From: Deltaproteobacteria bacterium
GTDB taxonomy: Bacteria > Desulfobacterota > Desulfarculia > Adiutricales > JAFDHD01
Direction: 5' to 3'
NCBI GenBank assembly: GCA_019308995.1
Contig: JAFDHD010000033.1
Location: 1-44,644 of the forward strand
Length of the DNA: 44,644 nt
Shown here: in pieces, positions 12,640 through 39,426 of the stretch
Layout: the number at the start of each line of letters is the position of its first letter
Numbering within the stretch: position 1 is the first letter of the stretch
The notes under the pieces: generated by a model
Seen by the model: only the letters and a program-made list of their open reading frames with translations
Told to the model about the DNA's origin: nothing
Databases searched by the model: none
Position numbers and translations under genes: made by a program

Positions 12640-14358
12640 TCAATCTCTCATACTTAACGGATCCCCAGTAGGCAGACCAAGCTCTCTGGCCCTCAGGACC
12701 CGGCGCAAAATCCTGCCGCTGCGTGTCTTGGGCAGCTCCTTAAGGAAAGCCACTTCTAAAAGTGGTATTTCAGACGAAAGGTTGGCCTTAACAAACTCCT
12801 TGATCTCCTGGCTTAGCCGGTTGGAGGGAGTGTAGCCCTGTTCCACGGTAACGAAGGCCTTGATATAAGGCTGGATGGGCCTGGATATCATGGAAATAAC
12901 AGCCGCTTCACTGACAGCAGGATGATGGCAAAGAACCTGCTCGACCTCGAACGGACCAACCAGCTTGTCTCCAACCTTTACCAGATCATCATTACGGCCC
13001 TGGTGAAAAAAATAGCCATCCTCGTCTCTTACGGCCAGATCCCCGGTGAGAAACCAACCTTTGAATCGGAGGTATTTGTTAAACCTCTTTTCATTGCGCC
13101 AGATACCGGTCATCATCGCAGGCCAGTCCAATTTAAAGGCCAGCTCGCCCATGGTTAAGATGGGCAATGGTTCCCCATCGTCAGAAACGATCACCGCCTC
13201 AACCCCTGGCACGGGTCTGCCCATAGAACCCGGTTTACATTCAAGGGAGGGGAAATTGGCCAGACAGATCATCCCTGTCTCAGCCATCCACCAGTTTTCA
13301 TGGGGAGAAAGCTTGAGGTTCTTTTTAACCCAGAAGAAATATTCCGGAGCCAGGGACCTGCCTCCAGTGGCAATATGACGCAGCGCGGACAGGTCGTAAC
13401 GATCGGGCAGGTCTTCGCCGGCTTCCACGAGGCCCTTAATGCGCTGCGGAGTGGTATACCAGACCGATACATGATGACGCTCCAGGGTCCGGTACCAGGT
13501 GGAAGCTGAAAACGGATCACCTTGAACCACTGAAGTGACACCGCACAGCCAGGGACAAAATACACTATAGACTGTTCCTGTCACCCAGGCAGGATCGCCG
13601 TCAGTCCACAACACACTGTCCTCTGTCAGGTCAAGCACATCCCGGCCTGTCACCATGTGCCCCACCATGTCGCGATGGGCATGGACCATAGCATTGGGCG
13701 GTCCGGCCGCCCCGGATGTATAGATAAGATAGAGCGGTGCATCGGCCGGGAGCCATCTGGGAGGACACTCATTTTCAAAACGTTGAAGGTGGTCTTTCAG
13801 GATGATCTCCTGAGGGAAGTGGCCAAGGGCTGGACCTTCGGTTAAATAAACATATTCCACACCCTCCATGGCATCGTCTGGCAACCTTTCAGCCAGATCA
13901 GGATGCGTGAGAATCGCCCGCGGCTCTGCGTTTCTTAAACGAACTTCCAGTTCGGCATAGTTAAAAGTTGAATAAAGAGGAGAAAAAATCACTCCCAAAC
14001 GGGCGCAGGCCAGCATGGCTATATATATCTCCGCACACATGGGCAGGAAAATGAAAAACCGATCTCCTGCCTCAAGGCCATGTTCGATCATCAAATTGGC
14101 CAGTTGACTGGATTTTTCCTTAAGGTCTTGATAGGTGAAATACTGAACCTGCCCGGCGTTCTCAAAGATCAGCGCATTCCGGTCCCGTTTGTCAGGGTCC
14201 TCGGTCCACCTGTCAATGGCCTCGTATACGATGTTGATCTTCCCGGTCTTGTGCCAAGAAAAATACTTCTCTTCCTCCTTCCAGGAAAAAGTCCGATAAG
14301 CCAGCTCATAATTTTTAAGGTTCGCATCGGGATTTTGGGCTGCTATTCTGGCCTTCAT
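12640..14358 (-). CDS. AcsA-type acetyl-CoA synthetase homologue, possible pseudoenzyme
   Basis: A 572-residue AMP-forming acyl-CoA synthetase with the same length and ending as Bacillus AcsA. It retains ADPAWVTG-like (GDPAWVTGTVY), TGD and GRNDD motifs and a PKTRSG C-terminal loop. Three usually essential sites differ. The ATP phosphate loop, normally TSGTTGKPKG, reads TSGAAGPPNA (214-223). The WWMTETG motif reads WWMAETG. The C-terminal catalytic lysine, the site of regulatory acetylation, is Arg549 (SGRILRR, codon AGG at 12714-12712). The reading frame is intact, so the protein is probably made, perhaps as a non-catalytic partner or with altered activity. The ATG overlaps the stop of the deacetylase gene by four bases, placing it last in the acetylation cluster. 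Confidence 0.82.
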   Translation of the reverse strand: MKARIAAQNPDANLKNYELAYRTFSWKEEEKYFSWHKTGKINIVYEAIDRWTEDPDKRDRNALIFENAGQVQYFTYQDLKEKSSQLANLMIEHGLEAGDRFFIFLPMCAEIYIAMLACARLGVIFSPLYSTFNYAELEVRLRNAEPRAILTHPDLAERLPDDAMEGVEYVYLTEGPALGHFPQEIILKDHLQRFENECPPRWLPADAPLYLIYTSGAAGPPNAMVHAHRDMVGHMVTGRDVLDLTEDSVLWTDGDPAWVTGTVYSVFCPWLCGVTSVVQGDPFSASTWYRTLERHHVSVWYTTPQRIKGLVEAGEDLPDRYDLSALRHIATGGRSLAPEYFFWVKKNLKLSPHENWWMAETGMICLANFPSLECKPGSMGRPVPGVEAVIVSDDGEPLPILTMGELAFKLDWPAMMTGIWRNEKRFNKYLRFKGWFLTGDLAVRDEDGYFFHQGRNDDLVKVGDKLVGPFEVEQVLCHHPAVSEAAVISMISRPIQPYIKAFVTVEQGYTPSNRLSQEIKEFVKANLSSEIPLLEVAFLKELPKTRSGRILRRVLRARELGLPTGDPLSMRD

Positions 14359-15449
14359 AACATTCTCCGATTCTTACTGGTTTCCTGCCTTATGCTCCTA
14401 TCTGCCCACACCCCGTACTCGGCGTGAATCCGGGCGGCCTTGGTCACGAGCTCTTCTCCCTGGGGTGTGAATGGATGCGGGAGTTCAGCCCTGGGTTCTT
14501 CGGCGATCAAAGCCCTCAGAACTTCCCGAACCGAACCGGCCAAGGCCTTCAGGTCGTAGCCGCCTTCAAGGGCCAAGAGAATGGGAGGATCCCCCACCTC
14601 AGCCGCTAAATCCATGATCAATTGAGTTAGCCAACCGTATCCCTGCTCGGTAAAGTCGGTTCGGCCGAGAGGGTCATCGCGGTGGCCGTCAAAACCCGCG
14701 GCAACGAGGATGATCTGAGGTCGGTAATTCCTGATAATAGGACCGAGAATATCCCGGTAACAGTGAAGGATGTCCTCATCTCCCAGGTTTTTAAACAGGG
14801 GGACATTAACCGTGTATCCAAGTCCCGGCCCCTGGCCAGCATCTTCCCAAGCGCCGGTCTGAGGAAAAGTGAAAACATAGTGTGAGGAAAAATAAAAAAT
14901 TTCTTTCTGATTGTAAAACAGGCGCTGCAAGGCGTTACCATGATGAATGTCCCAATCCACGATCAGAATGCGGTCCAATCCATAAACGCAAAGGGCTTGG
15001 AGGGCCGTGACTCCCAGGTTGTTGAAAATGCAAAAACCGCTGGCCCGGTCTGGCAGAGCGTGATGTCCTGGAGGCCGGATCAAGGCAAAAGCCGCCTCGC
15101 ACCGGCCAGACATAAGGGCATCCAGGGCCTGAAGGCAGCCACCTACAGCCAGAAAGGCGGCCATATATGTCTTGGGGCTGGCCGGCGTGTCGGGCGACAG
15201 GTGGGTGAACTCATACTCGGCAGTCTTGAGGATTTTTTCAATATAAATTGGAGTATGAACCAGTTCCAGCACGTCCATAGCCGCTGGCTCGGGCTTGATA
15301 TTGGTCAATGTACCCGAAAAATTCGTGTCCAGCATCTGATGGATAGCCTTTAAACGGTTGGGGTGTTCAAGGCTTACCAAGCCGGTCTTATGTTCTAAAA
15401 AACGATCATCTCTGATGGTACAAACTCTAGACGCCATACTTCCAATCAC
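14355..15449 (-). CDS. Histone-deacetylase-family protein, AcuC-like
   Basis: A 364-residue arginase/deacetylase-fold protein. Active-site features of zinc deacetylases are present: RPPGHHA (catalytic His pair), DWDIHHGN (zinc Asp and His), AAGFDGHRDDPLG (second zinc Asp) and EGGYDL (catalytic Tyr). The bacterial AcuC role is removal of the acetyl group from acetyl-CoA synthetase. It sits between a GNAT acetyltransferase and an AcsA homologue with four-base overlaps on both sides, an arrangement like the Bacillus acsA-acu region. The start is a GTG inside a GTGA overlap with the preceding stop; an in-frame ATG at 15437 is possible. An acetylpolyamine amidohydrolase role is the main alternative. 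Confidence 0.82.
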   Translation of the reverse strand: MIGSMASRVCTIRDDRFLEHKTGLVSLEHPNRLKAIHQMLDTNFSGTLTNIKPEPAAMDVLELVHTPIYIEKILKTAEYEFTHLSPDTPASPKTYMAAFLAVGGCLQALDALMSGRCEAAFALIRPPGHHALPDRASGFCIFNNLGVTALQALCVYGLDRILIVDWDIHHGNALQRLFYNQKEIFYFSSHYVFTFPQTGAWEDAGQGPGLGYTVNVPLFKNLGDEDILHCYRDILGPIIRNYRPQIILVAAGFDGHRDDPLGRTDFTEQGYGWLTQLIMDLAAEVGDPPILLALEGGYDLKALAGSVREVLRALIAEEPRAELPHPFTPQGEELVTKAARIHAEYGVWADRSIRQETSKNRRML

Positions 15450-15943
15450 AACCTCAAAATCATAGTGCGCTCCCAGCTCCCGCTTCCATGAAACTGGAAG
15501 TTGAACTTCTTATATAAACCAATCGCCCTCAGATTATAGCTTTCCACGGTCAGCCACACGAGTTCAAGTCCAAGCTCGATAGCCTTATCCCGTCCCGCCT
15601 GAGTGAGTTCCGTGCCTAGACCCCGGTTTCTAAAAGGCTCACTGACAAAGATCATAAACTCAGCGTCTTTCTTTTTTAAATCCGGCAGAAGGGCAGCATG
15701 ACCGACCACCTCGTTGTCCTTCCAGATTAAAAAGTTCACCCCGTTCTCAAGAAGGCCGTGCACCCACTCTCGGCGGATCTGGCTGTTTTCCGGAGGCAAA
15801 CCCTGAAGCGCCCTCTTCGGTTCAAACAGGTCGTACATCTTTAAAAGATATTGAAAATCGCTCTTATCACAGAGCCCAACCTCAAAGATGCTGCCCGTTT
15901 TGTCCAGAAATTTCGTTCGAAGGCAAACTGTGTCCATAAACAA
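15446..15943 (-). CDS. GNAT-family N-acetyltransferase
   Basis: A 165-residue GNAT-fold protein. The acetyl-CoA pyrophosphate loop is RNRGLGTELTQ, preceded by the beta-4 strand AEFMIFVSEPF and followed by the typical ESYNLRAIGLYKKFNF end. It is one domain with no nucleotide-binding extension. Its position, overlapping the AcuC-like deacetylase gene and in one block with two acetyl-CoA synthetase-type genes, suggests an AcuA-like role in lysine acetylation of acetyl-CoA synthetase. It is shorter than Bacillus AcuA and I cannot confirm orthology. The likely target is the intact synthetase encoded 113 bases upstream, because the AcsA homologue downstream lacks the target lysine. Confidence 0.78.
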   Translation of the reverse strand: MFMDTVCLRTKFLDKTGSIFEVGLCDKSDFQYLLKMYDLFEPKRALQGLPPENSQIRREWVHGLLENGVNFLIWKDNEVVGHAALLPDLKKKDAEFMIFVSEPFRNRGLGTELTQAGRDKAIELGLELVWLTVESYNLRAIGLYKKFNFQFHGSGSWERTMILRL

Positions 15944-16056: not shown

Positions 16057-18009
16057 TCAACCGCGATCTTTAATCAAATCCTCTATGGCCGCCGGATCGG
16101 CCAGGGTCGAAATGTCATCCAGTTGATCAAACTGCCCCAGTGCGATCTTGTGGAGTAAGCGATGCAGGATTTTGCCGCTCAGAGTCTTGGGTAGTGAGGA
16201 TGCAAATTTAACCATGTGAATTGTGGCAATCGGCCCAATCTTCAAACGAACCAGATCAACTAACTCCTGCTTCAGTTCATCAGACCTGGTCGCGCCGGTG
16301 TTAAGTGTAACAAAGGCCCAAATACACTGCCCTCGATCCGGGTCTGGCACTCCCACCACCGCCGCCTCAGCAACCTGATCGTGCTGGACCAGAGCGGATT
16401 CAAATTCAGCCGTGCCCAGGCGGTGGTTGGAAACGGTAATGACATCATCAAAGCGGCCCAAGATCCAGTAATACCCATCCTCATCCACCCTGGCTTCATC
16501 GCCGGTGAAAAACAGGTTTGGAACGATGGAAAAGTAAGTTTCCTTGAACTGGTAATGGTTGTTATAGACCGTGCGGGCCATACCGGGCCACGGCCTTTTA
16601 ATGAAAAGCGCTCCTTCCTGATCAGGATACTGAATCTCTGCGCCGGTATTCAGATCAAGAATAACCGGTTCAACCCCAAAGAAAGGCAAGGCGCATGAAC
16701 CGGGTTTCAGGGGTGTCACTCCGGGTAAGGGTGTAATCATGTGGCCGCCCGTTTCGGTCTGCCACCACGTATCCATGATAGGCGCCCAATCCCGGCCGAT
16801 ATGATGGTAATACCACTTCCATGCCTCCGGCGTTATGGGTTCACCCACTGTACCCAGAAGTTTGAGAGAGGTGATGTCATGTCTTTCAACATACTCGCCG
16901 CTCTCCTTAGCTAAAGAGCGTATAACATCAGGAGTAGTATAAAGCTTTTCCACCTTATACTTTTCCACGATCTGCCAGCAGCGATCAAAATTCGGGTAGA
17001 GAGGCACACCCTCGAATAGCACGCTGGTCAGGCCATTAAGCAGGGGCCCATAGACGGAGTATGTGTGACCGGTGATCCAGTCAATATTTGCCATGCACCA
17101 AAAGATTTCGTTCTCTTTCAGGTCAAAGACCAGCCTGGTGGTCATGGCGGCGTAAAGCAGATAGCCGCCGTGGGTGTGGACCATTCCTTTGGGCTTGCCT
17201 GTGCTCCCACTTGTGTGAAGAATAAATAAAGGGTCTTCTGCGTCCATAGGTTCAGGCGGAATAAAATCAGGCAGGTTCGCATCGGCCACGGCTTCCTGCC
17301 ACCAGACTTCATGGGCTGATTCAAGGCCATGGTTCAACCCACGGCGACCATAAACGATAACGGTTTCCACTTCAGGAGACCGCTTCATAGCCTCATCAAC
17401 GACAGTCTTAAGCGGAATCCACTTGCCGCCACGATACCCTCCATCGGCCGTCAGAACCACTTTGGCTCCGCAATCTTTTATACGGCTGGCCAGGGTTTCG
17501 GCACTGAGTCCAACAAAGACCGCGCAATGGATTGCGCCGATACGGCTGCAGGCCAGCAAGCTCACAGGCAGCTCCACAATCATGGGAAGGTAAATGACGA
17601 CGCGGTCGCCCTTTTGAACTCCTCTGGACTTCAGCACCGCCGCCAGTTTGTTCACCTGCTGATAAAGATCCTGATAGGTAACGACGCCGGATTCCTCAGG
17701 ATCATCTCCCTCCCAGTAATAGGCAACCCTGTCCCGCAGGCGAGGGAGATGCCGGTCGAGACAATTATAGCTAGCGTTGAGGACTCCGCCGCCAAACCAT
17801 TCAAACCGGGCTTCCTCGAAATCGGCTTTCAGAACAAAATCCCACGGCTTATCCCAGGTCAGATATTTCTCAGCCTGTTCCGCCCAAAACGCCTCAGGTT
17901 CTTGCAGAGACTTCCGGTAAAGAATATCGTATTCCTTAAGGCTTTTAATGTGGGCGAACTCCTGAAACTCTTCTAAATGAGCGTCATACCACTTTAAAGT
18001 GTCTTTCAT
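16057..18009 (-). CDS. acs: Acetyl-CoA synthetase (AMP-forming), divergent C-terminal motif
   Basis: A 650-residue enzyme converting acetate, ATP and CoA to acetyl-CoA, AMP and pyrophosphate. The ATP loop HTSGSTGKPKGMVHTH, the WWQTETGG motif, FTGDEA and GRFDDVI are intact. The catalytic Lys613 is present, but the surrounding loop reads PKTLSGKILHRLL rather than PKTRSGKIMRR, so the site recognised by acetyltransferases differs from that of the second full-length copy in this window. It is upstream of the GNAT and deacetylase genes (113-base gap) and may be their regulatory target. Closely related propionyl-CoA synthetase is an alternative specificity. Confidence 0.9.
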   Translation of the reverse strand: MKDTLKWYDAHLEEFQEFAHIKSLKEYDILYRKSLQEPEAFWAEQAEKYLTWDKPWDFVLKADFEEARFEWFGGGVLNASYNCLDRHLPRLRDRVAYYWEGDDPEESGVVTYQDLYQQVNKLAAVLKSRGVQKGDRVVIYLPMIVELPVSLLACSRIGAIHCAVFVGLSAETLASRIKDCGAKVVLTADGGYRGGKWIPLKTVVDEAMKRSPEVETVIVYGRRGLNHGLESAHEVWWQEAVADANLPDFIPPEPMDAEDPLFILHTSGSTGKPKGMVHTHGGYLLYAAMTTRLVFDLKENEIFWCMANIDWITGHTYSVYGPLLNGLTSVLFEGVPLYPNFDRCWQIVEKYKVEKLYTTPDVIRSLAKESGEYVERHDITSLKLLGTVGEPITPEAWKWYYHHIGRDWAPIMDTWWQTETGGHMITPLPGVTPLKPGSCALPFFGVEPVILDLNTGAEIQYPDQEGALFIKRPWPGMARTVYNNHYQFKETYFSIVPNLFFTGDEARVDEDGYYWILGRFDDVITVSNHRLGTAEFESALVQHDQVAEAAVVGVPDPDRGQCIWAFVTLNTGATRSDELKQELVDLVRLKIGPIATIHMVKFASSLPKTLSGKILHRLLHKIALGQFDQLDDISTLADPAAIEDLIKDRG

Positions 18010-19453: not shown

Positions 19454-20770
19454 CTAGTCAGACGTTTGGCTCGGCCCCCTTTCAGCTTGGTTTGTTGCGA
19501 CAGTCGACACCATAGGGGCTATCATTTCTTCAATCGGGCCCTTACGTCTTTTCAGGGTCAGAGCCAGGCCGGCGCCCACCAGGAGCATGATCCCGGCCAG
19601 GATGAATGAGGAATCAAAGCTGCCTGTGGCTGTCTTGAGCATCTGGGATAGCCGCCCCATGACAAAACCGCCCACTCCCCAGGCTGTGAAAACCAAGCCG
19701 TAGTTTATGCCAAAGTCCCGAAGGCCCCAGTAATCCTTGGTAAAGGAGGGGAAGAGTGCGAGATTGGTGCCATAGTTGAATCCGATTATGGTTGTCAGCA
19801 CAACCAAGGCCACGGCACTGTTGACTTTCATCAGGGGGATGGCGATAAACATGAGCACGGCCTGAAATGTCAGCATGATGACCAGTGTTAACTTGCGGCC
19901 GATGCGGTCGGAGATAATTCCAGCCAGGATGCGACCGGAGGCGTTGCCCACGGCCATCAAGGCCACGACCAGGAAAGCCATTTCGCCGAGGCTCTTTTTA
20001 GCCATGCCTGCCACCGAGCCGATGACCATCAGCCCTGCCCCAGCGCCGATGAAATAGGACAGCCATATGATATAGAATGATCCTGTCTTTAGCATCTGAC
20101 CCGGACTGAAAGCGTCTTCTAAAACCGGGGCAGCCGGGTTTGTGTCCGCCGTCGAGGTGCCGGGCACATAGCCTTGGGGAGGGTTTGTCAAAAGAAGGGC
20201 CAGGCCGCAGACGACGATAAAAAAGGCCACGCCAAAAAATAGCATTGCACTTTGCAGTCCCCAGACGCCAACGAGATATTTGGACAATGGGGCGATGTAC
20301 ACCGAGGCCAGGCCGAATCCCGATACAACCAGTCCAGCAATGAGACCGGTCCTGGCCGGGGGGAACCATTTCAGGGCCGGAGGTGTGGCCGAGGCGTATC
20401 CAAAGCCGATGCCAACGCCTGCCAGCACCCCGAATCCTAAAATCCAAACAATATAGCTGGCCGTTTGAGAAATCCAGATGAATCCGATTCCAACCAGAAT
20501 TCCTCCGATGATGGCGGTGATACGCGGTCCAATTTTATCCTGACACTTGCCTGCCAGAATCATGGTAAAAGCAAAAACGATGCAGCATATGGCATAAGGG
20601 TCGTTCAAAGAGGCTGGAGACCAATTGAAGCTGCCCGGCCCACCGGTCTCGATGGATTTCTTGATAGCTTCCTTAAAAATGGACCAGGTATAGAGAATCC
20701 CCAAAGCCAGGTTGATCCCTGTACCGGAAAACGTGACAACCCAACCCCTGTTCCGGCTCGCTGAGGTCAT
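19454..20770 (-). CDS. MFS carboxylate transporter, OFA (oxalate:formate antiporter) family
   Basis: A 438-residue integral membrane protein with 12 predicted membrane segments. The N-terminal GWVVTFSGTGINLALGILYTWSIF is characteristic of the oxalate/formate antiporter family, as is the A-like loop DKIGPRITAIIGG. A second-half loop reads SDRIGRKLTLV, and a GNASGRILAG segment lies in the second half. Family members carry small mono- and dicarboxylates such as lactate, formate, oxalate or acetate. The gene follows an acetyl-CoA synthetase gene by 68 bases on the same strand, with AAAGGGGAAAG before the ATG, so acetate or another substrate of that enzyme is the likely cargo. Direction of transport is not determinable. 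Confidence 0.86.
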   Translation of the reverse strand: MTSASRNRGWVVTFSGTGINLALGILYTWSIFKEAIKKSIETGGPGSFNWSPASLNDPYAICCIVFAFTMILAGKCQDKIGPRITAIIGGILVGIGFIWISQTASYIVWILGFGVLAGVGIGFGYASATPPALKWFPPARTGLIAGLVVSGFGLASVYIAPLSKYLVGVWGLQSAMLFFGVAFFIVVCGLALLLTNPPQGYVPGTSTADTNPAAPVLEDAFSPGQMLKTGSFYIIWLSYFIGAGAGLMVIGSVAGMAKKSLGEMAFLVVALMAVGNASGRILAGIISDRIGRKLTLVIMLTFQAVLMFIAIPLMKVNSAVALVVLTTIIGFNYGTNLALFPSFTKDYWGLRDFGINYGLVFTAWGVGGFVMGRLSQMLKTATGSFDSSFILAGIMLLVGAGLALTLKRRKGPIEEMIAPMVSTVATNQAERGPSQTSD

Positions 20771-20838: not shown

Positions 20839-22803
20839 TCACTCTTGTAGGCTCTGACGTCCTTCGATCAAGGCTTGCAGGACCTCGGGATCGGCGATGG
20901 TTGAGGTATCGCCAAGGTCGGTTGTTATCCCGGCAGCGATCTTCTGAAGGATGCGGCGCATAATTTTGCCGCTGCGGGTCTTAGGCAGGCCGCTGGCCCA
21001 CTGGATCACGTCAGGATTGGCAATGGGTCCAATCTCCTTTCTAACAAGCTGTACAAGCTCTTTTTTCAGTTCCTCCGAAGGCTCAACCCCCGTGTTCAGA
21101 GTAACAAAGGCATAGATGCCTTGGCCCTTGATCTTGTGGGGGAAGCCAACGACCGCGGCTTCGGCTACCTCAGCATGGAGAACCAGAGCCGATTCGATTT
21201 CCGCGGTGCCGAGGCGGTGGCCGGAGACGTTGATGACGTCATCAATGCGGCCGATGATCCAGAAGTAACCATCCTCGTCCTGCTTGGCTCCATCGCCGGT
21301 GAAGTACATGCCAGGCGCCTGGCTGAAGTAGACCTCCTTAAATCGCTCGTGGTCGCCGTATAGCGTCCGCGCTATGCCTGGCCAGGAGCGTTTGATGAAC
21401 AGAGCCCCTTCCTGGTTCGGGTATTGAACGGGCTCACCAGTCTCAATGTCCATTATGACCGGCTCTACGCCAAAGAAAGGGAACGAGCAGGAGCCGGGCT
21501 TAATCGGCCCCACACCGGGCAGAGGGGTAATGAGGATGCTGCCTGTCTCGGTCTGCCACCAGGTGTCCATAATCGGACACCAATCCCGGCCAATGTAATG
21601 ATAGTACCATCTCCAGGCCTCGGGATTGATTGGCTCGCCCACGGTCCCAAGAAGCTTGAGCGTGGAAACATCATGTTTCTGCGCCAACTCCGCCCCCTCT
21701 TTGGCAATGGCCCGGATGGCCGTGGGCGCGGTGTAAAACTTATTGACTTTATATTTTTCCACCACGGCCCAGAAACGATCGAAGGCCGGGTATGAGGGGA
21801 CGCCTTCGAACAGGACCGATGTCAGACCTTCGATCAGAGGACCGTAAACAATGTAAGTATGGCCGGTGACCCAGCCAATGTCCGCGGTGCACCACCAGAC
21901 TTCATCATCTTTGAGATCGAAAACAAGCCTGACCGTCATGGCCGCCTGCAAGAGGTAGCCAGCGTGCGTATGAAGGACCCCTTTGGGCTTGCCAGTGGAA
22001 CCGGAAGTATAAAGGATAAACAGCGGATCCTCAGCATCCATGCGTTCGGGCTCGACGTAATCGGGCAAGTCGGGCTGAGCCAGCGCTTCGTGCCACCAAA
22101 CATCCAGGTCCGAATTAACATTAATATCCAGATCACAATGCTTATAAATAAGAACCGCCTCAACTTCGGAAACCCCTTCTAACGCTTTATCCACGTTTGC
22201 CTTAAGGGGGATGGCCCTGCCACCCCGGAAGCCGCCGTCCGCAGTGATGATGATGCGCGGTTTACAATCCTCGATCCGGTCGGCCAGGGACTCGGCGCTG
22301 AAACCTCCAAAGACCACAGAGTGGATAGCCCCGATTCTGGCACAAGCCAGCATGGCAACTGGTAATTGAAGGATCATAGGCATGTAGATAATGATCCGGT
22401 CGCCTTTATTAATACCCCGGGACTTCAAAAAGGCGGCCAGCTTATTAACCCGCTCATATAAATCCCGGTAGGTGATAGCTTCTGATTTCTCCGGGTCATC
22501 ACCCTCCCAGTGATAGGCCACCTTATTTCCTATCTTATCCAGATGGCGGTCGAGACAGTCGTATGACGCGTTTAACATCCCACCGCCGAACCATTCAATA
22601 TTGCCTTCATATAAGTCTTCGCGCAACACGAAGTCCCACTCCTTGAACCAGGTGAGGTGTTTTTTCGCCTGCTCAGCCCAAAAGGTATCCGGGTCTTCCA
22701 ATGACTGCCGGTACATTTCCTCATACTGTTCCTTGCTGTTCACATAAGCAACTTTTCTATACTCGTCCAGATGGACGTCATACCATTTCTGTTCGGTTTC
22801 CAT
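20839..22803 (-). CDS. acs: Acetyl-CoA synthetase (AMP-forming)
   Basis: A 654-residue canonical Acs. Motifs: YTSGSTGKPKGVLHTH (ATP loop), WWQTETGS, FTGDGAKQDEDGY, GRIDDVINVSGHR and the C-terminal PKTRSGKIMRR with catalytic Lys613, the classic target of reversible acetylation. It is clearly a paralogue of the 650-residue synthetase in this window. It heads an operon with the OFA-type carrier. GGAGGAGGA precedes the ATG and a sigma-70 promoter lies 27-55 bases upstream. Together they would import and activate acetate. In a syntrophic or sulfate-reducing anaerobe this could feed acetyl-CoA oxidation by the reverse Wood-Ljungdahl route, but that is inference. Confidence 0.93.
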   Translation of the reverse strand: METEQKWYDVHLDEYRKVAYVNSKEQYEEMYRQSLEDPDTFWAEQAKKHLTWFKEWDFVLREDLYEGNIEWFGGGMLNASYDCLDRHLDKIGNKVAYHWEGDDPEKSEAITYRDLYERVNKLAAFLKSRGINKGDRIIIYMPMILQLPVAMLACARIGAIHSVVFGGFSAESLADRIEDCKPRIIITADGGFRGGRAIPLKANVDKALEGVSEVEAVLIYKHCDLDINVNSDLDVWWHEALAQPDLPDYVEPERMDAEDPLFILYTSGSTGKPKGVLHTHAGYLLQAAMTVRLVFDLKDDEVWWCTADIGWVTGHTYIVYGPLIEGLTSVLFEGVPSYPAFDRFWAVVEKYKVNKFYTAPTAIRAIAKEGAELAQKHDVSTLKLLGTVGEPINPEAWRWYYHYIGRDWCPIMDTWWQTETGSILITPLPGVGPIKPGSCSFPFFGVEPVIMDIETGEPVQYPNQEGALFIKRSWPGIARTLYGDHERFKEVYFSQAPGMYFTGDGAKQDEDGYFWIIGRIDDVINVSGHRLGTAEIESALVLHAEVAEAAVVGFPHKIKGQGIYAFVTLNTGVEPSEELKKELVQLVRKEIGPIANPDVIQWASGLPKTRSGKIMRRILQKIAAGITTDLGDTSTIADPEVLQALIEGRQSLQE

Positions 22804-24563: not shown

Positions 24564-27731
<3,168 letters not shown>

Positions 27732-27799
27732 TGGGTTCAGTCACAGATGTTTGATCTTGAGTGTCAATAAATTTTTCCAAATGCCCAAGGGTGATCCTT

Positions 27800-29819
27800 A
27801 TGGAGCAGAAGCCGAAAATAAAACTGACTATTGATGAAAAAGAGGTTGTGGTTGAAGAAGGCGCAACCATTTTGGATGCCGCCCGGCAAAACGATATTTA
27901 TATCCCGACCCTGTGTCACCACCCTGCCCTCTCCAATTGGGGAGGATGCCGTTTATGCGTGGTCGAGGTGGATGGCAACCCCAGGCTGGCGGCTAGTTGC
28001 GTTATGCCTGTCCGGGAAGGGATGGAGGTGGTTACTACCAACGAGAGAATCATCGAGGCGCGGCGAATCATTCTGGAGTTTCTTTTTTCCGAAAGGAACC
28101 ATTTCTGCATGATTTGCGCGCAGAGCGGAGACTGTGAGCTTCAGAGCCTGGCCTATGAACTGCAGATGGACCACCTGACTGTGCCTCAGTCATTCGAAGA
28201 ATTCCCGCTGGATATAACAAACGAGTATATGGTCATTGACCATAATCGTTGTGTTCTCTGCGGCAGGTGTGTTCGCGCCTGTCATGAGATTGCAGGCGCA
28301 TATGTGCTCAATTTCCACAATCGGGGACCGGAAACTATGATCGGTTTTGACTTCAACGATAGCAGAGAGGAGTCAACCTGCCTAAATTGTGGGATCTGTA
28401 TGCAGGTGTGTCCTACCGGCGCCATATATAACCGTTATCGGTCCCACTATGCCGTGAAGGGCCATAAAAAGGAGGATTGGCAAACGATCGAATCCTTCTG
28501 CCCGCAGTGCGGCCTAATGTGCCCCACAATCTTAACGGTCCAGGACAACAACATCGTCAAGATAGAAGGGAAACTCCAAGAGAATCAATCACGACCGGAT
28601 CGTGGACAACTCTGCTATATGGGCCGCTTCGAGCCCCTGAAAAATAACGGCGCCCGGCTCGTCAAGCCATTGGTCCGGGAAAGCGATGGAGATTGGGTCG
28701 AGGAAACATGGGACACCGCCCTGGTGTTCCAATGAGGAGCTGATGCTCTTCAGAGACCTCATGACCAACGGCTGGAGCGCCGGTTACATGGATACCCTGG
28801 ACGGCTCTCATTTCAGGACTATTTCCGGTGCCTGGAGGATCATGGAAAATCATTTCAGCGAGGCCTCATGGAAGTTGATCCCTGACTGTGACTGCCTTAT
28901 TGTCGTCAGTGCAGATCCATACCAGAGCCAGCCCATCATCTCATCACTCATACGGAAGTCTGTCCTGGAAACTGGCACGAAATTAATCGTGATCGGCCAG
29001 GAGAATCCCTTGCAGCTTTGGAGTTCTTTCCATTTTCCTGTCAAAAACGGGGATGAGGTTCAATTAATTAAAGCTCTCTGGGCAGAGGCGATCAGCTCCA
29101 TTAAACCTCCACCGCACATTAAAAACTGGAAAGTTGCTTCCAAGGAGGCCGAGGGGGTTGACATTTCTAAGTTAATCAAAAAGATTGGCCTGAGCGAAAA
29201 GATGAAAGAAGCCTTCCGTGAAGCGGCTACAATATTCGCCAGATCAATCAACCCCATGTTCATCGCAGGAGCAGGGCTGACCGGTCAGGAAGAGCCTTAT
29301 GGTCTGAGGGAGTTAATGAAACTGGCCGAATTAAAGGATCTGTTGCCCGGCGACACCTTGAGGCTGATTATCCTGAAACCGAATGGAAACAGCACCGGCG
29401 CATGGATTCTGAAGCTGTCCTCCGACAATATAATAAGCAACCACAATAAACTAAAAGGCGGGCTTATTCTCCTGGGAGGGGAAGATACTTCAAAGATCCA
29501 GGTTTTAGACAGGTTGAATGGACTGGATTTTCTTGCAGTTCTGAGCCCGTATTTCCCAGAGGCTCTGGCCGATAAAGCCGATGTCCTCATCCCCAAACCG
29601 TTATGGATGGAAGAAAACGGGTCATACACCTCCCTGGATGGCCTGGCCGTCCGCCTGAAGAAAAGGGCGCTTCATCCGCCAGAAGGTGTCAAAGAAACCT
29701 GGCGGACGATGATAGAACTGGCTAACCGAACCAAGTTTCGTCCCAGCTACGCGACCTGGAATGAACTGGTTGAGCAAGCACTTGATGAGATGAAGCTTCT
29801 GGTCGTGAACAGGACTTAA
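27800..29819 (+). pseudogene. HoxU/NuoG-type Fe-S subunit, split by an out-of-frame deletion
   Basis: The first frame (27800-28735) carries the HoxU/NuoG N-terminal modules: plant-type [2Fe-2S] (TLCHHP, GGCRLC), the His-Cys3 motif (HFCMICAQSGDCELQ), two [4Fe-4S] sites (CVLCGRCVRAC, CLNCGICMQVC) and the Fe-S entry of a molybdopterin-type domain (CPQCGLMC). It ends at WDTAL followed by a stop. The molybdopterin-type domain resumes in another frame at SNEELMLF and runs to 29819. Homologues have roughly 30 residues between these points, so an out-of-frame deletion near 28720-28730 is inferred. The N-terminal part is complete as a HoxU-like protein and could work alone. The downstream part could be re-initiated at ATG 28743 after GAGGAG. 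A sequencing or assembly error is the alternative. Confidence 0.8.
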
Positions 29820-29874
29820 AATGTACGGGAGCTCGGACAAGATGCCTGCTTCTATGAGAATTGGAGGCAAATAA

Positions 29875-30417
29875 ATGGGAAAGCCTAAAGTTGCCACAGT
29901 CTGGCTGGAAGGATGTTCAGGATGCCATATGTCCTTTCTGGACTTAGACGAGGGCCTGCTGGATATCCTCAACTCGGTCGTTCTGACAACAACCCCGATT
30001 ACCGATTTCAAGGATTTTGACTTTGAGGAGGTGGACCTGGGGATTGTCGAGGGCGCCATCGGGAATACGGAGCAGGAAGAGATCGTCAAAGAGCTTCGCC
30101 AGAAATGCAAGATTCTTATGGCATGGGGAGATTGTGCGGTCTTTGGAGGGATTAACGTTTTGCGCAACTGGATACCGAAGGAGGAGGTCCTAAGACGCGG
30201 TTTCCTGGAGACGGAAAGTACCGTGGACGGCGTAATCCCCGACGATGAAGAACTGCCAGCTCTTCTGGATAAGGTCCTTCCGGTCAATGCAGTCGTGCCT
30301 GTGGATGCATACGTGCCAGGCTGCCCGCCTTCTCCGGAGGCTATCGCCTTTGCACTTAAGGAAATCCTGGAAGGGAGGATCCCCATTCTTCCAGCTGATA
30401 TGATTCACTTCGACTGA
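29875..30417 (+). CDS. hoxY: [NiFe] hydrogenase small subunit, HoxY-type
   Basis: A 180-residue small subunit holding only the proximal [4Fe-4S] cluster, with ligands Cys14 and Cys17 (EGCSGC), Cys87 (GDCA) and Cys150 (VPGCPP). It has no twin-arginine signal and no medial or distal cluster domain, which matches cytoplasmic group 3 hydrogenases of the HoxY type. It lies 55 bases after the Fe-S subunit gene and 12 bases before the large subunit gene. It passes electrons between the Ni-Fe site and the diaphorase module. Confidence 0.93.
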   Translation: MGKPKVATVWLEGCSGCHMSFLDLDEGLLDILNSVVLTTTPITDFKDFDFEEVDLGIVEGAIGNTEQEEIVKELRQKCKILMAWGDCAVFGGINVLRNWIPKEEVLRRGFLETESTVDGVIPDDEELPALLDKVLPVNAVVPVDAYVPGCPPSPEAIAFALKEILEGRIPILPADMIHFD

Positions 30418-30429
30418 GGAGGTCGAGAA

Positions 30430-31860
30430 ATGGCTGCGACTCGAAAGATAACCATTAACCCTGTAACGCGTGTGGAAGGGCATGGAAAGGTCACGATCCA
30501 TCTGGATGAGAACGGTGAAGTGACAGACGCTCGTTTTCATATAACACAATTCCGAGGGTTCGAACGATTCTGCCAGGGACGATCCTTTGAGGAGATGCCG
30601 ATTATTACTCAGAGGATCTGCGGGATATGTCCGGTCAGTCATCAATTGGCTTCGGCCAAGGCCTGCGATGCTATTTTAGGGGTTGAGATTCCAGAAACAG
30701 CACGGTCCCTTAGGGAGCTGGAACATATGGGCCAGTTTATCCAGTCCCATGCGCTCCACTTCTTCTACCTAGCAAGCCCGGACCTCCTTCTCGGCTGGGA
30801 CGCTGATCCAGCCAGGCGGAATGTGGTCGGAGTGGTGGGTGAATTTCCAGAGATAGCGAAACAGGGCATCTATCTTAGGAAGTTCGGGCAGGAAATAATC
30901 AAGGCCTTGGGCGGTAAAAGAATACATCCGTCCTTTGCGGTGCCTGGAGGCGTCACGAGCGCCCTGGCGGAAGAAGACCGTGATCGTTTGTTAGGCGGAT
31001 TTGAAAAGGCCCATGAAGCATGCCGCACCGGCCTGGATTTCATGAAGGGCCTGGTTAAAAATAATTCTGATGAAATGAGGAGATTTGCTAACTTTTCATC
31101 CAATTATATGGGCCTGGTGGATTCAAAAGGCCGGCTCAACCTCTATGATGGAAAACTCAGGATAATAGACGGCGAAAAAACGCTTGTGGCCGAGTTCGAT
31201 CCAGCCAACTACCTGGAGTATCTGGGCGAGAGAGTCATGCCATGGTCTTACATGAAATTCCCTTACTTTAAACCTGCCGGGTGGCCTGACGGGTATTACC
31301 GGGTTGGACCTCTGGCCAGGATTAACGTTGCAGACGGCTTGAGCACGCCTTTAGCCCAGGAGGAATTTGAAAGATATGAACAGATAGCCCTGTCCGGGCT
31401 CATGGGCGCTTCACTTTTGTACCACTACACCAGACTGATGGAAATCCTGTATGCCCTGGAACGGGCTGAGGAACTGCTTACGGACAAAAATATCACGAGC
31501 ACGGACATTCGCTTCACTGCCGACCCTTCGCGTGAGGAAGGCGTGGGGGTTATTGAAGCGCCGAGGGGCGTTCTCATCCATCATTACATGGTGGACGGGT
31601 ATGGGCGCATTACCAAGGCAAACCTTATTGTGGCTACCTGTCATAACAACATGGCCATGAACCGCTCCATCCAGCTTGTCGCCAGGGAATACATCAACAA
31701 CGGCCAGGTGAAGGAAGGCATACTGAATCGAGTCGAAGGCGCGATACGGTGCTATGATCCCTGCCTTTCATGTGCGACTCATGCCCTCGGTCAGATGCCT
31801 CTAAAAGTTCAGGTTTACAGCTCTAACGGCGAACTTTTAACAGAATTACAACGAGATTGA
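30430..31860 (+). CDS. hoxH: [NiFe] hydrogenase large subunit, HoxH-type
   Basis: A 476-residue catalytic subunit. Ni-Fe ligands are Cys64 and Cys67 (RICGICPVSH) and Cys445 and Cys448 (DPCLSCATH). The conserved RVEGHG segment is at 14-19. The 25-residue tail after His451 is the peptide removed by a dedicated protease, which the next gene supplies. The L1 and L2 motifs match the cytoplasmic bidirectional NAD-linked (group 3d-like) type rather than membrane-bound uptake enzymes. AGGAGG precedes the ATG. It catalyses reversible H2 oxidation. All metal ligands are present, so this subunit looks functional although the HoxU/NuoG gene upstream is broken. Confidence 0.95.
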   Translation: MAATRKITINPVTRVEGHGKVTIHLDENGEVTDARFHITQFRGFERFCQGRSFEEMPIITQRICGICPVSHQLASAKACDAILGVEIPETARSLRELEHMGQFIQSHALHFFYLASPDLLLGWDADPARRNVVGVVGEFPEIAKQGIYLRKFGQEIIKALGGKRIHPSFAVPGGVTSALAEEDRDRLLGGFEKAHEACRTGLDFMKGLVKNNSDEMRRFANFSSNYMGLVDSKGRLNLYDGKLRIIDGEKTLVAEFDPANYLEYLGERVMPWSYMKFPYFKPAGWPDGYYRVGPLARINVADGLSTPLAQEEFERYEQIALSGLMGASLLYHYTRLMEILYALERAEELLTDKNITSTDIRFTADPSREEGVGVIEAPRGVLIHHYMVDGYGRITKANLIVATCHNNMAMNRSIQLVAREYINNGQVKEGILNRVEGAIRCYDPCLSCATHALGQMPLKVQVYSSNGELLTELQRD

Positions 31861-37128: not shown

Positions 37129-39426
37129 TCAGCCTACCATAAAATTGGCGGCAACAGCTTGTCCCAGAGAGACACCACCATCATTACAAGGAACCTCTTG
37201 ATGCGTGAAGACCGTGAGGCCCGCTTCCTCCAAATATCTCCGGGTAAGCATAGAAAACAATCGGTTCTGAAACACACCGCCGCTTAAAGCCACCTGATTC
37301 ACTCCAGCCCTCTGAGCCAGAATTTGACACATCTCAACGACCATCCAGGCCATGGTGTTATGAAATCTGGCGGATATTTCAGCCTGCGAAAGCCCCTGGG
37401 CCAGGTCTGAGAGGATTCCCTTGAAGAGTTCCCGGAGGCGCACCACCATAAGCCCGTTTCGCTCATTAATTTCAAATAAATATCTTTCAGATCTTGCTAT
37501 CTCTTCCGAGGCAACCATTTCAAGCTCAATAGAGGCCTGAGCTTCATAATCCACCCGGTCCCTGACGCCTATCAAAGCCGAGACACCGTCAAAAAGACGC
37601 CCCGAACTGGATGTCATGGGCGAGTTGACGGCTTTTTCAATCTGTTTTTTTATAAGGTCAATCTCAAGGCTTTTCAAAGGCGAAAGAAAGGCCAGCTTCT
37701 GATTCAAAGCATCTTCCCCCAGTAACGTTAAAAGGTAGCTGATTGCCATGCGAAAGGGCTTCCTGACAGCCTCGGCGCCGCCGGGCATGGGTACGTATTC
37801 CAGATGCCCCATCCGCCTGAAATTCCCGTAATCAGCCAGCAGGAATTCTCCTCCCCAGATGCGGCCGTCAGTACCGTATCCTGTCCCGTCGAAAGCGACC
37901 CCCAAAACAGGCGGCTTGATATTATTTTCCGCCATGCAGCTCACGATGTGCGCATGATGATGCTGAACCGGAACCATCATAAGATTGTTTCTTAGCTCTT
38001 TTAGCTGAAAGGCATACCTGGTGGAAAGGTAGTCTGGATGCTGGTCATAGGCCACAATTTTCGGCTCAAGGCGGAAAAGCTTTTTATATAACTCGATCGT
38101 GTTCTCAAAATGGCTTAAAACCTCGAAACTATCCATGTCTCCCAGGTGCTGGCTCAGAAAGGCATACTCGTCTCTGGTCAGGCAGAAGGTGTTCTTGAGT
38201 TCGGCCCCGCAGGCCAAGACCTCCTTGGCCTTAAATGGCAAGCGAATAGGATCAGGAGCATAGCCTCGAGCCCGCCTGATCATCTTGAGACGGCCCTGCT
38301 CTATCATGGTCACACTGTCGTCATAGCGGGCATGGATGTCTCGATCATGCAGCAGGAAGTAGTCGGCGATCTTGCCCAGCTTTTGCAAGGACTCATCATT
38401 ATCCTTGGCAATGGGTTCTTCGCTTATATTACCACTGGTCATGACCAGAGGCAGACCGACCTCCCTCATCAATAAATGGTGAAGCGGAGTGTAAGGCACC
38501 ATGACCCCTAAGTAATTATTATTAGGGGCCACCATGGGAGAAATGAAACGCGTGTGCCTGTGCTTTAAAAGAACAATGGGTGATGCGGGGGAAGTAAGAA
38601 GCGCTTCCTCTTCGCCTGAAACAAAACAGTATCTCTTGATTTCGTCCAGGTTGGACATCATCACGGCCAGAGGCTTGAATGGTCGGCGCTTCCTCTGCCG
38701 CAGGAGCTGAACCGCATTTTCATCTGTGGCGTCACAGGCGAGTAAGAATCCTCCAAGCCCCTTAACAGCTAAGATGTTTCCCTGCTTGATGAGCCTTGCA
38801 GCGTCAACGATGGGATCATACGAAGAAATCGTCAGGCCGGCTCGATCGGTGAGTTCGAGCCTGGGGCCGCAATTTGGGCAGGCATTAGGTTGGGCGTGAA
38901 ACCGGCGATCCAGGGGGTTTTCATACTCACGCTGGCACTCAAGGCACATCTTAAAACGATGCATGGTCGTGTTAACCCGATCATACGGAATATCCTCGAT
39001 GATGGTAAACCTGGGGCCGCAGTTAGTGCAGTTTGTGAATGGATAACGAAAGTGCCGATCCCTTGAATCAAAAATCTCCGCCTGACAAAATGGACAGGTG
39101 GCAATGTCAGGTGAGATAAGCTGGTATCCCCCCGCTTCAGCCCGGCTGTCTCGAATCACGAACCGATAATATCCGGACGGCGCTGAAAAATGAAAGGCGA
39201 CCTTCTCGATCTGAGCCACGGGCGGGGCTTCTGTTTTTAGGCCTGCTAAAAAGCGCTCGATAGCCTCGCCACTGCCTTCAACCTCGATCCTGACGTCTCC
39301 TGAGGTGTTGCACACCCAACCCTTAAGGTCATGTTTTACGGCCAACTGGTAGACAAAGGGCCTGAATCCAACACCCTGGACTATGCCTCGGACGCTTACT
39401 TGAGCTTTCTTTAAGCCCTCAACCAT
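37129..39426 (-). CDS. hypF: Carbamoyltransferase HypF
   Basis: A 765-residue enzyme that activates carbamoyl phosphate and passes the carbamoyl group to HypE. Domains in order are: acylphosphatase (about 8-95, VRGIVQGVGFRPFVYQLA); two zinc-finger sets (CPFC...CTNC and CLEC...CPNC, about 110-190); a YrdC-like nucleotide site (about 205-390); and a Kae1-like domain with HHHAHIVSCMAE, DGTGYGTDG and ALSGGVFQN. It is the first gene of hypFCDE. HypA and HypB, which insert nickel, are not in this window. AAGGG precedes the ATG. Confidence 0.95.
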   Translation of the reverse strand: MVEGLKKAQVSVRGIVQGVGFRPFVYQLAVKHDLKGWVCNTSGDVRIEVEGSGEAIERFLAGLKTEAPPVAQIEKVAFHFSAPSGYYRFVIRDSRAEAGGYQLISPDIATCPFCQAEIFDSRDRHFRYPFTNCTNCGPRFTIIEDIPYDRVNTTMHRFKMCLECQREYENPLDRRFHAQPNACPNCGPRLELTDRAGLTISSYDPIVDAARLIKQGNILAVKGLGGFLLACDATDENAVQLLRQRKRRPFKPLAVMMSNLDEIKRYCFVSGEEEALLTSPASPIVLLKHRHTRFISPMVAPNNNYLGVMVPYTPLHHLLMREVGLPLVMTSGNISEEPIAKDNDESLQKLGKIADYFLLHDRDIHARYDDSVTMIEQGRLKMIRRARGYAPDPIRLPFKAKEVLACGAELKNTFCLTRDEYAFLSQHLGDMDSFEVLSHFENTIELYKKLFRLEPKIVAYDQHPDYLSTRYAFQLKELRNNLMMVPVQHHHAHIVSCMAENNIKPPVLGVAFDGTGYGTDGRIWGGEFLLADYGNFRRMGHLEYVPMPGGAEAVRKPFRMAISYLLTLLGEDALNQKLAFLSPLKSLEIDLIKKQIEKAVNSPMTSSSGRLFDGVSALIGVRDRVDYEAQASIELEMVASEEIARSERYLFEINERNGLMVVRLRELFKGILSDLAQGLSQAEISARFHNTMAWMVVEMCQILAQRAGVNQVALSGGVFQNRLFSMLTRRYLEEAGLTVFTHQEVPCNDGGVSLGQAVAANFMVG

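Follow-up and report, generated by a model that had tools for sequence, protein, structure and literature searches.

Acetyl-CoA synthetase (Acs) is a textbook target of reversible lysine acetylation. In Bacillus, AcuB binds the deacetylase AcuC and inhibits it, assisted by the ligands AMP or Ap4A (PMC13121692, PMC13039410). The AcsA of B. subtilis forms a back-to-back dimer of N-terminal domains (PMC11910552), and its K549R variant is not acetylated, yet retains a stable complex with AcuA (PMC11255334). No published pseudoenzyme of the Acs or ANL type was found among open PMC papers. The gene described here lies in a contig of 44,644 nucleotides from a member of the Desulfobacterota (the window, meaning the whole stretch of DNA that was analysed) and specifies a protein related to AcsA, named pseudo-AcsA (pAcs), which is encoded together with a predicted zinc deacetylase (HDAC) and a predicted GNAT acetyltransferase (Table 1).

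Table 1. Positions of pAcs, its altered motifs and linked genes (window coordinates, or locus and coordinates for genes found elsewhere)
Feature	Position	Strand	Remarks
pAcs, AcsA fold (predicted) without canonical ATP-site residues and K549	12640..14358	-	572 aa
Degenerate P-loop TSGAAGPPNA, residues 214-223	13690..13719	-	S217A, T218A, K222N, G223A vs canonical AcsA
GGRS replacing VGEP, residues 332-335	13354..13365	-	
WWMAETG for WWMTETG, residues 356-362	13273..13293	-	T359A
Codon 549, Arg replacing the catalytic, acetylatable Lys	12712..12714	-	AGG
HDAC, class-II-like zinc deacetylase (predicted)	14355..15449	-	364 aa; PF00850, 294 bits; catalytic motifs intact
GNAT acetyltransferase (predicted), not AcuA	15446..15943	-	165 aa; TTG start, or ATG at 15937
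True Acs (Acs1, ACS_N type)	16057..18009	-	650 aa; retains the catalytic Lys
MFS transporter for monocarboxylates (L-lactate type), encoded between Acs1 and Acs2	19454..20770	-	NF049980, above cut-off
Second true Acs (Acs2)	20839..22803	-	654 aa; all motifs canonical (LPKTRSGKIMRR)
Hydrolase/transferase-GNAT fusion	L169:13216-15117(-), L036:2409-4292(+), L175:2657-4588(+), L176:13009-14916(-)		

An AcsA-like protein with altered active-site motifs

The pAcs frame opens with ATG and has no internal stop. Residues 7-572 aligned with B. subtilis AcsA (PDB 9g79/9g7f), the best solved relative, at E=6e-160, in agreement with the end-to-end homology claimed in a sequence-only reading of this DNA. 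On the AcsA acetate--CoA ligase model NF003313 the protein scored 611.5 bits, below the curated cut-off of 729 bits. Arg at residue 549 (codon at 12714-12712) and the T359A change in an intact frame, both claimed earlier, were recovered exactly as described. The unusual ATP loop was also present, but the B. subtilis reference reads GSTGTPKG and not GTTGKPKG as had been stated earlier; where canonical proteins have TSGSTGTPKG, pAcs fails to match the NF003313-type P-loop pattern TSG[ST]TGxPKG. The GEP motif has become GRS (E334R, P335S) and is accompanied by V332G, the CoA site carries A303T (position 303 corresponding by alignment to A357 of S. enterica), and the Arg of SGERVG is absent. This last feature was considered as a mark of inactivity and dropped, the motif-intact relatives L031/L032 and L058/L074 also being without the Arg.

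pAcs still has D440 and R455 of the ribose site and W356/W357, tryptophans of the acyl pocket, although the phosphate residues are gone; we take the roles of all these positions from homology with S. enterica Acs. The AlphaFold2 model had a mean pLDDT of 89.6, with values below 50 at P-loop residues 216-218, and its predicted N-terminal domain could be superposed, with an rmsd of 1.3 Å, on chain 9g79_A of the AcsA cryo-EM structure.

Canonical AcsA was represented by 68 sequences, all from genome-scan loci and mostly from Bacillales. In every one of these (68/68), the P-loop Lys, K549, E334, T359, A303 and T253 were invariant, and since a protein from the same genus (the congener, G001) has most of the same changes, those seen in pAcs go beyond chance. 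Comparison of pAcs with the congener over 572 codons gave pS 0.62, pN 0.10 and a dN/dS of about 0.08, the ratio being approximate as dS exceeds 1; the neighbouring HDAC gave a similar value (0.079). In the most degenerate clade, dN/dS of pAcs ranged from 0.12 to 0.33, near the value of its own HDAC in most pairs. The gene is under purifying selection and is not decaying.

Relatives and the history of motif loss

Relatives were sought in related genomes, the class, the phylum and named genomes, and yielded a clade of 37 distinct entries, mostly from metagenome-assembled genomes (MAGs). On one quick tree, built with the motif columns omitted, this clade was starred at 100 and had a long stem (0.84). 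The named members are Desulfobacterota MAGs (Desulfobacterales, Desulfatiglandales, Desulfomonile and others), and the CoA-site Ala303 was replaced in all 37. The window gene belongs to this clade, which consists of Desulfobacterota paralogues of AcsA whose CoA site is altered.

The extent of motif loss varied widely. Core members of the clade kept the P-loop Lys (23/23) and, with two exceptions, K549 (21/23). The congener's pAcs, 83% identical, has the P-loop, GRS and MAETG changes and retains Lys549 (SGAGGPPSG, RNGKIL). The most degenerate forms were found in the second family of the class (f5), where the P-loop Lys is mostly gone, WVTG is often gone, and Arg549 occurs in 12/12 sequences, L116 excepted. 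Some lineages besides that of the window and f5 carry Thr, Gly, Gln, Val or Ile at 549, and in two HDAC-linked groups outside the clade either K549 has become Thr, Gly or Gln, or the P-loop Lys has become Met or Ile. Over the clade and these two related groups, K549 changed at least five times independently, and starred branches force all five of these changes; for the P-loop Lys there were six changes, at least five of them forced.

Because the congener has lost the P-loop Lys but not K549, and both are mostly present in relatives at 51-65% identity (with P-loops of the SGSTGPPKG type), K549R is a late step. The idea that the three substitutions are conserved together therefore survives for the P-loop and MAETG, both common to the congener, but not for residue 549, and the three changes as one conserved set are ruled out. 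The related question raised earlier, whether close relatives keep the Lys and the P-loop, has a divided answer along the same lines. Core members with both lysines could be active enzymes, so the ancestral role of the family may be enzymatic.

The linked deacetylase and its neighbourhood

The window HDAC has the His-His, Asp/His/Asp and Tyr motifs (RPPGHHA, DWDIHHGN, AGFD, EGGY). These were retained across 40 sequences with rare single deviations, the sole one at a catalytic position being GGF for GGY in L168. Among the 37 clade loci, an HDAC gene was present in the fetched stretch in 31, nearly always directly upstream of pAcs, and was not detected in six, one of these due to a contig end; it was also present in 8/8 loci of the two related degenerate groups. 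Pairwise distances of pAcs and HDAC were correlated (r 0.83, 35 taxa), and the partial correlation given Acs1 was 0.77 (18 taxa), a control that only partly removes shared ancestry. The closest solved relatives of the window protein in the PDB are class II, HDAC6-type enzymes. It is about 40-62% identical to module members outside the genus, and about 27-34% identical to the HDACs beside Bacillus acsA (the AcuC position). The earlier AcuC-like label is thus loose.

The GNAT stop overlaps the HDAC GTG start, and the HDAC stop the pAcs ATG, by four bases each, confirming the overlaps reported before; because of these, the three genes are probably translationally coupled. At 1e-3, the GNAT matched nothing near the 68 canonical acsA loci, and in the PDB it matched polyamine and RimI-type GNATs; an acetylase candidate is indeed encoded with pAcs, as had been proposed, but it is not AcuA. 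Genes of this GNAT type occurred near pAcs in 14 loci; in the Arg549 clade, no GNAT gene was found close upstream of pAcs. The most constant partner of pAcs is the deacetylase, rather than the GNAT. A possible rule that K549 is kept only where a GNAT is linked (14 loci with Lys and GNAT, 15 with neither, six off-pattern) is not claimed, because the tree gives only three independent pairs; some of the 14 depend on a weak match to a hydrolase-GNAT fusion. This fusion, of about 630 aa, joins an acetyl-CoA hydrolase/transferase (PF02550, PF13336) to a C-terminal GNAT and is encoded upstream of Acs1 in four operons.

True Acs genes were near pAcs in 20 distinct loci, and the P-loop Lys and the acetylatable Lys were retained in 23/23 Acs1-type proteins examined. 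Acs1 of the window is a likely client of the GNAT/HDAC pair. The adjacent ACS_N-type enzymes are only 34% identical to pAcs, and in the most degenerate clade, which still has the HDAC, no enzyme of this type was found next to pAcs. In most f5 loci (L118, L122-L127; e.g. L125:11218-13718(-)), HDAC and pAcs instead come after overlapping frames for an OmpR-type response regulator and a PAS histidine kinase, which suggests that the pair was once part of an Acs operon and has moved into a signalling operon. Genome G362 has two copies of the pAcs-HDAC-GNAT set (L167, L168), only one of which has an Acs next to it.

Elsewhere in the window (24564-31860, + strand; 37129-39426, - strand) are genes of NADH-dehydrogenase/hydrogenase type, including a Nuo51-type and Pyr_redox fusion of 1055 aa, a 2Fe-2S/4Fe-4S subunit and a Ni-hydrogenase large subunit, with HypF nearby. 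Two ORFs on the + strand, of 232 and 202 aa (120-815 and 839-1444) and without Pfam match, precede an AAA/TniB-like ATPase gene (1645-2955).

Discussion

The catalytic motifs of pAcs are lost, its gene is intact and a deacetylase gene lies alongside, so that pAcs is probably a former enzyme converted to a regulatory role. Its residues make it very probable that the protein is dead for acetate adenylation. Its description as a pseudoenzyme, in which catalytic residues were lost while the predicted fold and purifying selection were retained, is well supported at least for the ATP half-reaction; to that extent the earlier proposal of a pseudoenzyme holds, and the link it drew to acetylation control is also supported. 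According to the explanation preferred here, pAcs derives from an AMP-forming AcsA, lost acetate adenylation, and probably binds the HDAC encoded just upstream. In what remains of the ribose and acyl pocket, its scaffold may still bind AMP or acyl-AMP but would make no acetyl-CoA, and pAcs could thereby set how quickly the true Acs enzymes regain a free Lys after acetylation. Regulation of the HDAC is proposed because that protein is the constant companion of pAcs, and we give this an even chance of being correct; gene linkage can reflect a shared pathway instead of binding.

Several other explanations need to be weighed. Retained activity with altered chemistry, as an AMP-forming ligase or acyl-AMP user with another substrate, or in the second half-reaction only, appears unlikely. 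It can be read above all into the core members, which keep the P-loop Lys and mostly K549, and the window protein still has D440, R455 and the tryptophans of the acyl pocket, a pocket that V332G would enlarge; but the P-loop Lys, T359, E334 and K549 have all gone together from that protein, the CoA-site Ala is replaced throughout the clade, and a broader acyl preference leaves the loss of phosphate residues unexplained. The sequence-only reading had suggested an acetylation-proof decoy, in which the GNAT would take up Arg549 in its site without being able to acetylate it, and so be kept off the real Acs. The stable AcuA complex of B. subtilis AcsA K549R (PMC11255334) shows how this could work, and Arg is the replacement found in the window protein and throughout the most degenerate clade (12/12). 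We nevertheless regard such a trap as distinctly unlikely, and it fails as a general explanation because K549R is a late step, the same-genus protein retaining Lys549. In addition, Thr, Gly, Gln, Val or Ile at this position would not mimic Lys, the linked GNAT is not AcuA, and the Arg549 clade members are those for which no GNAT gene was found close upstream.

It is also improbable that pAcs is a regulatory subunit of the true Acs, forming a heteromer with it, and that the HDAC linkage reflects only a shared client. The dimer of B. subtilis AcsA (PMC11910552) offers a model for such a heteromer and true Acs genes are often near, but the low identity between pAcs and the adjacent ACS_N-type enzymes argues against it, as does the most degenerate clade, which keeps the HDAC but in which no such Acs was found alongside. 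Finally, a decaying duplicate on its way to becoming a pseudogene, or a sequence error in a metagenome assembly, would fit with motif loss being progressive and lineage-specific, but is extremely improbable and was ruled out by the low dN/dS against the congener at that level of synonymous divergence, and by the occurrence of the same changes in independent assemblies with long open frames throughout; moreover, one of the most degenerate forms is held by a single-contig genome (G042).

If a family of Acs-derived pseudoenzymes is tied to a deacetylase, then a textbook regulated enzyme has served as raw material for a regulator. A more sweeping version, in which the acetate-activating enzyme turned several times independently into a subunit that senses adenine nucleotides or acyl-AMP and gates an HDAC-family enzyme, as a second and unrelated AcuB-like solution, is put forward tentatively and is open to considerable doubt. 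The natural series from motif-intact to extremely degenerate forms allows one to ask what non-catalytic role the Acs scaffold has, and in Desulfobacterota an automatically assigned label of 'acetate--CoA ligase' can be mistaken.

Comparison with known systems

Bacillus AcsA (PRK04319 / NF003313, PDB 9g79, 9g7f) resembles pAcs in full-length homology, length, domain plan and predicted N-terminal domain (rmsd 1.3 Å), but pAcs falls short of the model cut-off (611 versus 729 bits) and is without the P-loop Lys, T359, E334, K549 and the CoA-site Ala303. The acu module of Bacillus (AcsA, AcuA, AcuB, AcuC) and the window both cluster a synthetase, a GNAT and an HDAC-family deacetylase with a fourth protein. 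The window HDAC, however, is only about 30% identical to AcuC-position proteins and is nearest to class II HDACs in the PDB, its GNAT is unmatched near Bacillus acsA, and a CBS/ACT protein of the AcuB type was not seen in the window, the fourth protein being the AcsA pseudoenzyme. By analogy, pAcs would fill the place that AcuB has in Bacillus. The fold of AcuB (Bateman and ACT domains) is unrelated to that of pAcs, and the likeness between them would be one of proposed function only, that of an adenine-nucleotide-responsive partner of a deacetylase.
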